Shown: in pieces, positions 1,883 through 38,629 of the stretch | How the letters are laid out: every line of letters begins with the position of its first letter | How positions within the stretch are numbered: the stretch's first letter is position 1 | NCBI RefSeq assembly: GCF_018118585.1 | Contig: NZ_CP069421.1 | Location: 1 to 64,000, forward strand | From: Aristaeella lactis | Lineage (GTDB): Bacteria > Bacillota > Clostridia > Christensenellales > Aristaeellaceae | Direction: 5' to 3' | Length of the DNA: 64,000 bases | Notes under the pieces: generated by a model | Seen by the model: only the letters and a program-made list of their open reading frames with translations | Databases searched by the model: none | Told to the model about the DNA's origin: nothing | Made by a program: the position numbers and the translations under genes

Positions 1883-3305
1883 GCAGGCCTTAAGGCCGGT
1901 GAAAATGAAGATCCGCCGGAACCGTTTTCTGAGAGGTATTGTGACGGGGCTGGCTGCTGGGCTCGGAACTGCTGTGCTGCTGCAGGCGGTATCGTTTTTC
2001 GTGCCCGTTCCCGACCGGGGACTTTGGGCAGCGGCTGCCGGCGCGGCGGTTATGCTGCTTACGGCGATCGGAAACGCCCTGCGGCCGGTGAAAAACAACA
2101 CTGCCGCGGAGGCGGCGGATGCCTGCGGCCTGAAGGAACGTGTGATCACGGCGCTGGAAGAGGAAAAACGGGCATCCGGCACCGCTGGGGACATTGTCCT
2201 GCTGCAGCGAAAGGATGCCTGCGCGGCGCTTGAGAAGCTGGACGTAAAACAGATTCGCCCCGGCAGTGTGAAGAAACAGCTGCTGGCGGCGCTGGGATGC
2301 GCGGTGCTGCTGGGAGGACTGCTGCTGATCCCGAGCCCGAGGGATTCGGAGGCTGCGGTCAGAAAGGCCCTGACCCGGACCCTGCAGGAAGGCAGGGAAG
2401 CAATCACCCGGGCGGCGGAATCGGATGAAGAAAACCTGACGGAAGAAAAGAAGAGCGAACTGCGGAAGATCACCGATGACCTGAAAAGGGACCTGGAAAA
2501 AAGCCGGGACGCGGCAGACGCGATGGTAGCCCTGGACAGGGCTGAACAGCGGCTGGAAGACTTCCGGAAGCAGACGGCAGGAGATGCCGCCGCAGCCGCG
2601 GAAGGCATGAACGGAAACGGAGAAAGCCAGACGGCGGACGGCGGAGAGAAATCCGGAACCGAAGGAAACGATTCTGAAAACGCTTCGGGTCAGGCGGGCG
2701 AGGGACAGCAGGGAGCAGCGTCCGGCAGCACAGGGATGACAGCCGGACAGATGCAGACAATGCAGGCTCTTTCCAGCCTGAAGAGCGCAGTCAATCCCTC
2801 CGCCGGTCAGGAAACGGATACGGATATGGAAGGAAACGCCGGAGGACAGGGAGCCGGACAGAGCCAGAAGGGGCAGAACGGAAACGGTATGAACGGCGCA
2901 AACGGAGGAAACCAGGGTGACCAGACCGGAACAGGCGCCGGAGAAGGCTCCACCAACGAAGAGCAAAAGGGCAGCAGCCAGAACAGCGGCTCCCATACCG
3001 TTGGCTCCAGGGATCCGAAATACAAGGAAGAACAGTATGAGACCATCTACGATCCGGAGCGGACAGAACGATCCAGTGAGGACGTGATGACGGAACAGGA
3101 CCGGCTGGGTGACGACGGATCAGTCCAGCTGGAAACCGGACCGGGCCGGGGAAATACCGGCGGCAACGTGCCCTGGAATGAAGCCCTGAATGATTACGCT
3201 GAAACGGAAGCCCGCGCGGCCGACAGGGAAAACCTGACGGTGCAGGAACGGCAGTGGGTCAACAATTACTTTACGCTCCTTACAGAGCAGAAACCGAATG
3301 AATAA
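1863..3305 (+). CDS. Membrane protein with Gly/Gln/Asn-rich region, DUF4175-like
   Basis: Protein of 480 residues of unknown function. Two adjacent hydrophobic segments lie near residues 22-62 and a third near 137-155. A charged, probably coiled-coil stretch follows (about 170-235). Residues ~240-375 are low complexity, rich in Gly, Gln, Asn, Ser and Glu. The C-terminal ~100 residues are again normal sequence. This arrangement resembles DUF4175-type proteins found next to MoxR/VWA genes, but I see no diagnostic motif. Two tandem ATG codons (1863, 1866) sit inside a heptamer repeat with no convincing ribosome site, so the start is uncertain. It ends 21 bases before the MoxR gene. Confidence 0.7.
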   Translation: MMNYELKQALRPVKMKIRRNRFLRGIVTGLAAGLGTAVLLQAVSFFVPVPDRGLWAAAAGAAVMLLTAIGNALRPVKNNTAAEAADACGLKERVITALEEEKRASGTAGDIVLLQRKDACAALEKLDVKQIRPGSVKKQLLAALGCAVLLGGLLLIPSPRDSEAAVRKALTRTLQEGREAITRAAESDEENLTEEKKSELRKITDDLKRDLEKSRDAADAMVALDRAEQRLEDFRKQTAGDAAAAAEGMNGNGESQTADGGEKSGTEGNDSENASGQAGEGQQGAASGSTGMTAGQMQTMQALSSLKSAVNPSAGQETDTDMEGNAGGQGAGQSQKGQNGNGMNGANGGNQGDQTGTGAGEGSTNEEQKGSSQNSGSHTVGSRDPKYKEEQYETIYDPERTERSSEDVMTEQDRLGDDGSVQLETGPGRGNTGGNVPWNEALNDYAETEARAADRENLTVQERQWVNNYFTLLTEQKPNE

Positions 3306-3316
3306 TGAAGAATGGA
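3296..3316 (+). repeat. Short degenerate heptamer array
   Basis: Three units (GAATGAA, TAATGAA, GAATGGA) overlap the last codons and stop of the upstream gene and the first in-frame ATG of the MoxR gene. It belongs to the dispersed family described in the findings. Confidence 0.45.
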
Positions 3317-3326
3317 AGGCAAGGAC

Positions 3327-4316
3327 ATGAGTGAACAGATAAAAGCCGTGGAAAAATTCGCGGAACAGTATGAACAGATCCGGACGGAGATCGCGAAGGA
3401 AATGATCGGACAGGCTGACGTGGTGGAACACCTGCTGCTGGCCGTGATCGCCGGAGGCAATGTGCTGCTGGAGGGCGTGCCCGGACTGGGCAAGACCCAT
3501 CTGGTACGGGTGCTGGGCAAGGTGCTTGACCTGCCGTTCTCCCGTATTCAGTTCACACCGGACCTGATGCCCGCGGATATCACGGGTACCAATATCCTGG
3601 TGCGTACGGAAGAAGGGAATGTTTTCCGCTTCCAGGAGGGACCGCTTTTCTCCTCCATCGTGCTGGCGGATGAGATCAACCGCGCCACTCCCAAGACACA
3701 AGCTGCCCTTCTGGAAGCCATGCAGGAACATTCTGTGACAGTGGCCGGGGAAACCCGCAGGCTGCCGGAGCCCTATTTTGTGCTGGCAACCCAGAACCCT
3801 GTGGAGCAGGAAGGTACCTATCCGCTGCCTGAAGCGCAGCTGGACCGTTTCCTGTTCAAGGTGCTTGTGCCGTTCCCGACGCTGGAGGAACTTGGCGCGA
3901 TCGTTGACCTGACAGTAAAGGACGGAGGCAGCGAGGCGAAGAAGGTGATCGGCGCGGAGGAACTGCTTTCCATGCGCGCGGCGGCCCGGAGCGTTCCGAT
4001 TGCCGCCAGCGTACAGGAATATGCCCTCCGGCTGGTGCTTGCCACGCATCCGGAAACCGCGGACGCGCCTGAAACGGCGAAGAAGTACCTGCGCTTTGGT
4101 GCCAGCCCCCGCGCGGCACAGGCGCTGCTTTCCGCAGCCCGGGTCCGTGCGCTGGCTAAGGGCCGGTTCAACGTGGCCTATGAGGATATCCGTTTCGCGG
4201 CACCTGCCTGCCTGCGGCACCGCGCTGCCCTGAACTTTGAGGCAGTGACCGCCGGAAAGGACATGGAATCCGTGCTGACGGACATCCTTGCGGCAATAAG
4301 CGAAAAGAATTCATAA
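3327..4316 (+). CDS. MoxR-family AAA+ ATPase
   Basis: AAA+ chaperone-like ATPase of 329 residues. Walker A (GVPGLGKTH) lies near residues 51-59 and Walker B (IVLADEIN) near 110-117, followed by NRATPKTQAALLEAMQE. Sensor region LATQNPVEQEGTYPLPEAQ is typical of MoxR. Family members act on VWA-domain partners, which are encoded just downstream. An in-frame ATG at 3312 exists, but the ATG at 3327 has the ribosome site (GGAAGGCAAGGA) at proper spacing and is preferred. The last codons and the TAA stop lie in a heptamer repeat. Confidence 0.93.
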   Translation: MSEQIKAVEKFAEQYEQIRTEIAKEMIGQADVVEHLLLAVIAGGNVLLEGVPGLGKTHLVRVLGKVLDLPFSRIQFTPDLMPADITGTNILVRTEEGNVFRFQEGPLFSSIVLADEINRATPKTQAALLEAMQEHSVTVAGETRRLPEPYFVLATQNPVEQEGTYPLPEAQLDRFLFKVLVPFPTLEELGAIVDLTVKDGGSEAKKVIGAEELLSMRAAARSVPIAASVQEYALRLVLATHPETADAPETAKKYLRFGASPRAAQALLSAARVRALAKGRFNVAYEDIRFAAPACLRHRAALNFEAVTAGKDMESVLTDILAAISEKNS

Positions 4317-36900: not shown

Positions 36901-37106
36901 TCCTGTACCGGATCAGGCATGAAACGCTGGGACGGTTGAAAAACAAGACTTTTTCAGATACAATCTCAAAGAGGGTAGATAAAAAATATACCTGTTTTCC
37001 TGACCGTGCTGATACCTTCATCGTATAAACTGATGGAACGATGTTCCGGTTTCAGCGTCTAAAGATACGGGACCGGAAAAACGGTGCCGGAAAGGAAGAA
37101 AAAAAG

Positions 37107-37478
37107 ATGAAAAAGCTGATTGCCTTACTGTGTGTTCTCCTGATGATGGTTTGTGCCGCTTCCGCGACCGCGGAGCAGCTGGCAGGCGGATGGACGCCTT
37201 CCGCTGATCCTACGGTGACTGAAGAACGGCAGGCACTGTTTGACAAAGGGACGGAAGCACTGACCGGCGTGGGCTACACGCCCATCGCTTATCTTGGATC
37301 CCAGGTTGTGGCAGGAACCAATCACGCATTCCTGTGCCAGGCCGTTGTGGTTTATCCCGGCGCGGAACCGCATTACGCTATGGTGTATCTGTATGAAGAC
37401 CTGCAGGGCAATGTATCGATCCTGAGCATTGCTGAGGTGGACGTCGGAGCCCTGTGCACCTACGGTGCGGAAGAATAA
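37107..37478 (+). CDS. Secreted cystatin/stefin-like protein
   Basis: Protein of 123 residues with a Sec signal peptide (residues 1-22, cleavage after ATA). The mature part has Gly27-Gly28 near its start, a predicted helix (about 37-52) and the exact cystatin loop QVVAG (66-70), followed by TN. A strand pair and a loop at EDLQGN (about 95-100) correspond to the second inhibitory hairpin of stefins. Cystatins inhibit papain-family cysteine proteases, so an extracellular inhibitor role is inferred. An upstream in-frame start at 37041 is disfavoured; AAAGGAAG precedes the ATG at 37107. A terminator follows. Confidence 0.75.
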   Translation: MKKLIALLCVLLMMVCAASATAEQLAGGWTPSADPTVTEERQALFDKGTEALTGVGYTPIAYLGSQVVAGTNHAFLCQAVVVYPGAEPHYAMVYLYEDLQGNVSILSIAEVDVGALCTYGAEE

Positions 37479-37558: not shown

Positions 37559-38629
37559 TCAGGTTTCCGCGGCTTTGCGTTCGCTTCGCCGGATCCGGTT
37601 GATATGACGTTCAAACTCGCCTCCGCTGATCAATTCTGCCAGGACATACTGTTCAAAAGCGGGGACGGTGCAGCTGTAAAAACCCACACGCAGCTCAAAA
37701 ACCGGAAGCAGGGCACGGGGAATGACCATATAGCCGACACGGAAGGAAGGGGAAACTGTGCGGGAAAAGGTGTTGAGGTAGATAACATTCTGGCGGGAGG
37801 AACCGGCAAAAAGAGTTTCCTCCGGTTTGCGGAGGAGAGAGAACTCTGATTCGTAGTCATCTTCAACGATATACCGGTCCGGCTTATCGGCCCAGCGAAG
37901 ATACTCCCGGCGCTTGGAGGCGGTGGCGGTGACGCCGCTGGGGAAACTGCGGAAGGGCGTTATATGGAGCACGGAGGCTTTGGTGGCCTGGAGCGCTTCC
38001 GAAAGGATCCCGTTCTTTCCGAGAGGACAGAAATCCACTTTGACATCCCTGGACCGGTATACCTGTTCAATCTTTTGATAGGAAGGTGCCTCAATGGCGT
38101 AGGTACGGCTGCTGCCCAGCAGTTCCACCGTGAGCCCGTAAAGGTATTCAGCACCGGCACCGATGACGATCTGGTCCGGCTGGACACGGATACCGCGGTT
38201 GCGGGCCAGGTAGCTGCACAGGGCTTCCCGCAGTTCCAGGCATCCGGTGTTGGGCGGACGGACCATGATCTCCTCTCCGTACTCGGTCAGCACCCGGCGC
38301 ATGACCCGGGCCAGGGTGGGAAAGGGCAGGGTGTTCCGGCCCGGAGCGGGGGCAGCCGGGATAATCCGGTGTTCCGGCCGGACGGCGGGCATGGAGAAGC
38401 CGTCCGCCTCCCGGTAGATGACATAGCAGCCGCTGCGGGCACGGGATTCGGCGTATCCCTCCTCACACAGCAACTCGATGCTGTGCTCCGCTGTGATGGC
38501 ACTGACGCCACGGTCCCGGGCGAGGACACGCCGGGAAGGAAGGCGGCTGCCAAAGGGCCGTACACCGGAGAGAATCTCCTCCCGCAGGGATTCATAAAGG
38601 GCCAGGTAGGCCGGTTTGTTCTGATTCAT
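37559..38629 (-). CDS. MocR-type (GntR/aminotransferase) regulator, C-terminally short, PLP lysine replaced
   Basis: Protein of 356 residues. An N-terminal GntR winged helix (residues ~1-70, LPSRRVLARDRGVSAITAEHS) is followed by an aminotransferase-like domain. The PLP-ring Asp region EDDYESEF is present, but the motif expected as TFSKT reads TFSRT (codon CGC), so no Schiff-base Lys is available. Family members are about 450-480 residues; this one stops roughly where the C-terminal small domain should begin. It is divergent from an ECF S-component gene, a context typical of PdxR control of vitamin B6 uptake. It may be a non-PLP regulator or a decaying gene. Confidence 0.82.
   Translation of the reverse strand: MNQNKPAYLALYESLREEILSGVRPFGSRLPSRRVLARDRGVSAITAEHSIELLCEEGYAESRARSGCYVIYREADGFSMPAVRPEHRIIPAAPAPGRNTLPFPTLARVMRRVLTEYGEEIMVRPPNTGCLELREALCSYLARNRGIRVQPDQIVIGAGAEYLYGLTVELLGSSRTYAIEAPSYQKIEQVYRSRDVKVDFCPLGKNGILSEALQATKASVLHITPFRSFPSGVTATASKRREYLRWADKPDRYIVEDDYESEFSLLRKPEETLFAGSSRQNVIYLNTFSRTVSPSFRVGYMVIPRALLPVFELRVGFYSCTVPAFEQYVLAELISGGEFERHINRIRRSERKAAET

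Follow-up and report, generated by a model that had tools for sequence, protein, structure and literature searches.

When cystatins bind papain-like proteases in known complexes, the parts that enter the active-site cleft are a stretch at the N-terminus and two hairpin loops. Stefins of bacterial origin have been known as a kind, in silico, since 2009. The parts of the survey of that year considered here report them in 17 genera, including Clostridium (15 of 60 genomes) and Oribacterium, together with a stefin–chagasin fusion in Bacteroides fragilis and a triplicated cystatin in Polaribacter (PMC2784779). A 2012 review states, in the part consulted, that further experimental data on bacterial cystatins are needed (PMC3594739), and among the titles we found in the open-licence literature, none names a functional test of one. 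An earlier sequence-only reading of the locus studied here, which described cystatins as mainly eukaryotic, underrated this record, in which bacterial stefins, some of them from Clostridia, were already in print (PMC2784779).

Here we describe a small gene in a 64,000-nucleotide stretch of DNA (the whole stretch analysed, hereafter the window). What is new is an exported, diversified family that escapes Pfam recognition in all 48 members searched. On family profiles and a predicted fold, the window protein is a divergent member of the cystatin superfamily (I25), nearest to stefins but exported, as judged from its leader. It is probably an exported, stefin-like inhibitor of papain-type (C1) cysteine proteases.

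The gene and its surroundings

Gene, leader, promoter-like site and neighbouring gene lie as follows, in window coordinates.

37107..37478, + strand: predicted secreted stefin-like (cystatin superfamily, I25) gene; open reading frame of 123 aa, stop codon included in the coordinates
37107..37172, + strand: putative export leader, about residues 1–22, read from the sequence; cleavage site inferred
36936..36964, + strand: promoter-like site TTGAAA-17-TACAAT upstream of the gene; 10 of 12 positions in a consensus scan
37559..38629, − strand: neighbouring gene for a presumed GntR/MocR-like regulator, outside the system; its adjacency marks orthologous copies

The sequence-only reading had placed the frame correctly, from the ATG at 37107 to a stop codon ending at 37478. 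A purine-rich stretch precedes the ATG, and two promoter-like sites, counted as consensus matches only, lie in the region near the gene, against 0.8 in shuffles. Secretion had also been claimed, and a leader-like N-terminus at residues 1–22 agrees with it; AlphaFold2 models this region of the precursor as a helix (residues 2–20) with lower confidence. The mature part would then comprise 101 aa.

The gene is solitary. It is flanked by what we take, from the translations, to be a sugar-transport operon and the MocR-like regulator, both on the opposite strand. Three relatives (L008, L021 and L022) have the order cystatin, regulator, membrane protein in common; because these copies adjoin the same regulator gene, we regard them as orthologues kept in place. 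At 12 relative loci whose gene surroundings were judged by eye, none had a cysteine protease next to the cystatin. Peptidase-like neighbours occur at some of them (TldD/PmbA-like at L010, M50-like at L015, HtrA-like at L018), none common to several.

Family profiles and the predicted fold

The sequence-only reading had proposed a Pfam search as a check on cystatin identity, and that check failed. The cystatin model PF00031 matched neither the window protein (up to E 10) nor, up to E 1, any member of a 48-protein family set that contains it, and found 0 matches in the window's own genome. The same model, however, gave one weak match and none above its cut-off in 398 genomes of the phylum, and none above cut-off on ten distant stefin-like relatives. 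Because of this silence the Pfam negative carries little weight, and PF00031 seems blind to bacterial stefins; since it fails to recognise the family, bacterial cystatins are probably undercounted. NCBIfam, searched with the window protein alone, returned no significant match. Weak Pfam/NCBIfam hits to Anophelin, ExtJ and Bd0108 (E 0.05–0.15) map to the leader, and we regard them as chance matches.

Homology to cystatins is visible with family profiles only, not with the single sequence. A phmmer search of the PDB with the window protein placed a non-cystatin, 3bio, first (E 0.052) and the tick cystatin mialostatin second (0.16). We built three profiles. The first, A1, holds 48 rows (the window protein and 47 relatives), leaders included; the fragment L017 was left out, as was L020, a Propionibacteriales match dropped as spurious for want of the motif. 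The second, A3, holds 52 rows of mature domains, namely the window protein and 51 of 65 collected domains. The 14 left out were seven with degenerate loops by eye (L101, L102, L103, L108, two of L109, and L111), six near-duplicates and the second L053 domain, which has no loop. The third, A5, draws its 35 diverse rows more widely and takes in relatives found in another class, on a Bacteroidota plasmid and on viral contigs.

Searched against the PDB, A1 gave 23 matches, 17 of them cystatins, yet the first was the chorismate mutase AroH (E 0.0017), with five AroH chains in all. With A3 the first 16 matches were all cystatins (best 3e-4), as were 22 of 25 overall, counting CPI and Smolstatin, which we take to be cystatins; the three AroH chains left had E values of 0.17 to 0.84. 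With A5 the top 22 of 25 matches were cystatins (best 1e-5), among them a nearly full-length match to cystatin A2 (8gqq), and AroH was absent up to E 1. We rejected an AroH identity because its match faded once leaders were removed and the profile was broadened. It had been a tempting reading, as genes close by presumably belong to the shikimate pathway.

The predicted structure points the same way. AlphaFold2 gave a mean pLDDT of 85.5 for the precursor and 89.0 for the mature part, both modelled as a helix followed by four strands. In the precursor model the helix spans residues 39–48 and the strands 55–67, 71–81, 89–97 and 103–111, with a short C-terminal helix at 113–118. Residues 68–70 (VAG) form the turn between the first two strands, and a second hairpin lies between the last two. 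In a first Foldseek search of the PDB the top five matches were cystatins (best E 8e-4, the one match at E ≤0.001); in a second the top seven were (best E 1.9e-3, none ≤0.001), with modest TM scores of 0.51–0.56 of the query. The sequence-only reading had anticipated such a grip with QVVAG at a hairpin tip, and the model, with its helix, four-stranded sheet, VAG in the turn and cystatins as top fold matches, is in keeping with it.

Convergence, in which an unrelated small exported domain carries the motif by coincidence, could account for the lack of significance with a single sequence, for AroH outscoring cystatins in the first profile and for the modest Foldseek scores. It sits badly with cystatins filling the top 16 places for A3 and the top 22 for A5, and with independent fold evidence that also points to cystatins, and we think it very improbable. 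Profile matches to solved cystatins combined with the predicted fold lead us instead to a divergent I25 protein, and the cystatin identity first proposed from the sequence is thereby supported at the family level. The I25 features found are profile homology (with family profiles), the predicted fold, an N-terminal Gly and a Q-x-V-x-G loop.

Expected contact segments and variant forms

Three segments of the window protein correspond to those expected to touch a protease.

37185..37193, + strand: N-terminal Gly-Gly-Trp, residues 27–29, expected first contact segment; G27 and W29 at least 90% conserved in A1
37302..37322, + strand: first hairpin loop QVVAGTN, residues 66–72, expected second contact segment, from conservation and a modelled turn
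37395..37412, + strand: second hairpin EDLQGN, residues 97–102, expected third contact segment, without Pro-Trp; G101 invariant in A1

All elements named in the sequence-only reading are present: GGW (27–29), QVVAG (66–70), the following TN (71–72) and the second hairpin. Its estimate of about 38 residues from Gly to QVVAG is close to the 39 found, a Gly-to-Gln distance that 31 of the 52 A3 rows have, counting the window protein (range 37–43). G70 and N72 never vary across the 48 A1 rows, and Q66 and V68, like G27 and W29, are at least 90% conserved; together with G101, P59, L76 and G54 these are among the best-conserved positions. In A3, invariant columns are partly a product of selection, since domains with degenerate loops were left out. 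Among the 65 collected relative domains, Q-x-V-x-G occurs in 58 by pattern (the match in L103 lies elsewhere in the protein and is chance, by eye), exact QVVAGTN in 30, and G-x-W near the start in 58. Such conservation across aligned family sequences exceeds chance.

A minority of domains lack the Q-x-V-x-G loop: seven of 65 by pattern, eight by eye. They include degenerate members at L101, L102, L103, L108, L109 and L111, some of them fused to other regions. As the loop is missing from them, these members are probably not inhibitors and may serve another role. They lend some weight to the idea that the window protein has kept the cystatin fold, lost protease inhibition and now binds another extracellular ligand, as do known proteins that have this fold but do not inhibit C1 proteases. 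In the window protein and most relatives, however, the three contact segments are among the best-conserved positions, which makes this loss quite unlikely for the window protein, and inhibition remains the preferred reading.

The family is frequent in the window's taxonomic family and rare outside it. The window's own genome has a single copy; six other matches up to E 10 are all at noise level (E ≥0.25). In a sample of 150 genomes of the taxonomic family, 43 matched with the single protein and 44 with the 48-row profile, own genome included in both counts. All seven genomes of the genus in this sample match, one (G132) solely through a degenerate domain. Wider draws gave 5 of 196 genomes of the class with the single protein and 4 of 398 of the phylum with the profile, the own genome among them each time. 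Scanning genome contigs turned up 13 loci, of which 12 are credible; their labels are mostly Clostridia or Firmicutes groups, and seven of the 12 titles name a ruminant gut site.

Within this range the family takes several forms. A leader-like N-terminus is present in 53 of 57 relative frames by a crude pattern, and seven of these 53 show a lipobox-like pattern, convincing by eye in four (L015, L018, L051 and L110). Tandem pairs of cystatin domains are found at eleven loci (L018, L047, L050, L052, L053, L099, L100, L104, L105, L106 and L109). At L048:1501-2061, also collected as L107 (G018:C93), the frame reads on from the cystatin domain into the beginning of a chagasin (I42) domain, which is broken by a run of N; a second I42 piece follows in another frame; PF09394 matched with E 0.0053, and in the 150-genome scan the two pieces fell below cut-off. 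From these frames an intact cystatin–chagasin fusion is suggested, not proved.

Related domains also occur on viral contigs and on large Bacteroidota replicons. A viral contig scan gave 23 loci, of which 22 were inspected. At 15 of them (IMG/VR; L119–L126, L128, L129, L131, L135 and L137–L139), on contigs of 11 to 504 kb, we noted leaderless proteins of about 190–210 aa with two cystatin-like domains, situated near positions 2900–3600 of most loci and at 1193–1807 in L122. Six viral neighbour genes were compared with PHROG: four match named families (PhoH, dUTPase, methyltransferase and RNA-binding protein), a fifth matches a family without a name, and the sixth has no match. One viral cystatin-like example had no match in PHROG and none among 50,697 phage records. 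In Bacteroidota, stefin-like genes lie on the Aureibacter tunicatorum plasmid pAT1 (L141) and in Persicobacter sp. JZB09 (CP012852.1), annotated as hypothetical proteins or falling where no gene is listed.

Likely targets and comparison with known inhibitors

We propose that, once the protein is exported, its N-terminal Gly-Gly stretch, QVVAG loop and second hairpin would together make a wedge fitting reversibly into the active-site cleft of a C1 protease and blocking it, in the manner of other cystatins. The site of action would most likely be outside the cell, where the inhibitor could shield the cell's surface proteins and those it exports from papain-type proteases of foreign origin in the gut, namely those of host cells and, in ruminants, of ciliates. 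In the few genomes with exported C1 proteases of their own, such as the three in this one, it may restrain these too. Both roles, shielding from host or competitor enzymes and regulating the cell's own, had been put forward in the sequence-only reading.

The three are encoded in tandem (G000:C1:2626000-2643000) in open frames of 1177–1358 aa, each predicted to be exported and carrying what we take to be Ig-like repeat regions and a repeated C-terminal module. They raise the alternative that the window protein is chiefly an immunity-type inhibitor of the cell's own exported C1 proteases, guarding against self-digestion during export. In the 150-genome sample, PF00112 matches 54 genomes, mostly as short pieces of 440–500-aa frames that we judged, by length and match position and from one inspected case (G132), to be cytoplasmic PepC-type enzymes. 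Exported C1A-type proteases were recognised by eye in six genomes (G000, G076, G081, G082, G098 and G112), and every one of the six has the inhibitor, which 44 of the 150 genomes have overall (hypergeometric p 5e-4 by genome, 0.002 by genus, both uncorrected for ancestry and genome size). Counting a seventh genome, G053, had given 6 of 7 (p 0.003); its 619-aa frame is PepC-type by eye, and it was set aside.

This association favours a self-protective role, but most carriers do not fit it. No exported C1A-type protease was recognised in 38 of the 44 carriers, and within the genus the family occurs in all seven sampled genomes and exported C1 proteases in two. The two kinds of gene are, moreover, unlinked in the window's own genome, at 37 kb and near 2.63 Mb. 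Self-immunity as the chief function is therefore rather unlikely, and foreign proteases are the likelier main target, with self-protection an added or alternative role. We rank outward defence first because in 38 of 44 carriers, and in five of seven genomes of the genus, no such protease of the cell's own was found, and because published work names plausible opponents. Parts of a report on ruminal ciliates list cathepsin B and a cathepsin F-like protease among the top 50 expressed enzymes, probably for digesting bacteria (PMC7200989), and Kordis and Turk, in the parts of their survey considered here, suggested that bacterial stefins act in defence, directed at proteases of eukaryotic hosts (PMC2784779).

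A broader scenario would join these observations as an arms race of inhibitors among gut Clostridia. Exported cystatins, whether single, tandem, lipoprotein-like or joined to chagasin, would shield the surface from ciliate or host cathepsins and double as immunity to the cell's own papain-like proteases, and the leaderless two-domain cystatins of large viruses would act inside the infected cell. We offer this as speculation, with low confidence in the whole. Being common within one bacterial family, bearing leaders and showing clean contact residues, the family is well suited to finding out whether bacterial cystatins inhibit proteases, and whose.

Among known inhibitors, the window protein has in common with stefins, or type 1 cystatins (stefin A, 1dvc; the secreted Fasciola hepatica protein, 6i1m), the N-terminal Gly, Q-x-V-x-G and a second hairpin without Pro-Trp, and the profiles match them. 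Typical stefins are not known to have a leader or a Trp after Gly-Gly. Type 1 cystatins are classed by having no signal peptide, and because residues 1–22 look like a leader, we speak of a stefin-like exported protein, not of a classical stefin. Between the middle strands, an alignment to cystatin A2 shows about seven additional residues in the bacterial family. Tick cystatins (mialostatin 6ztk, amacstatin 8r28, sialostatin L2 3lh4) are among the best sequence and fold matches, and the first two have a GGW start in common with the window protein in profile alignments. Tick cystatins are type 2 and contain disulfides. Type 2 calls for two C-terminal disulfides and a Pro-Trp hairpin, and the window protein, with two cysteines in its mature part (Cys77 and Cys117) and no Pro-Trp, falls outside it.

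Chagasins (MEROPS I42, PF09394) also inhibit C1 proteases but have a fold different from that of cystatins. They occur in the same bacterial family, above cut-off in 25 of 150 genomes. We found no co-occurrence with the cystatin by genome and, above cut-off, a tendency towards avoidance: any chagasin match was present in 9 of 44 carriers versus 28 of 106 other genomes, and matches above cut-off in 3 of 44 versus 22 of 106 (p 0.05). The exported Clostridia family with its lipoprotein-like and tandem forms, absent from the parts of the 2009 survey compared here and set apart from it by description, not by sequence, stands beside the bacterial stefins of Kordis and Turk (PMC2784779), which likewise belong to the cystatin superfamily and include members from the class Clostridia.
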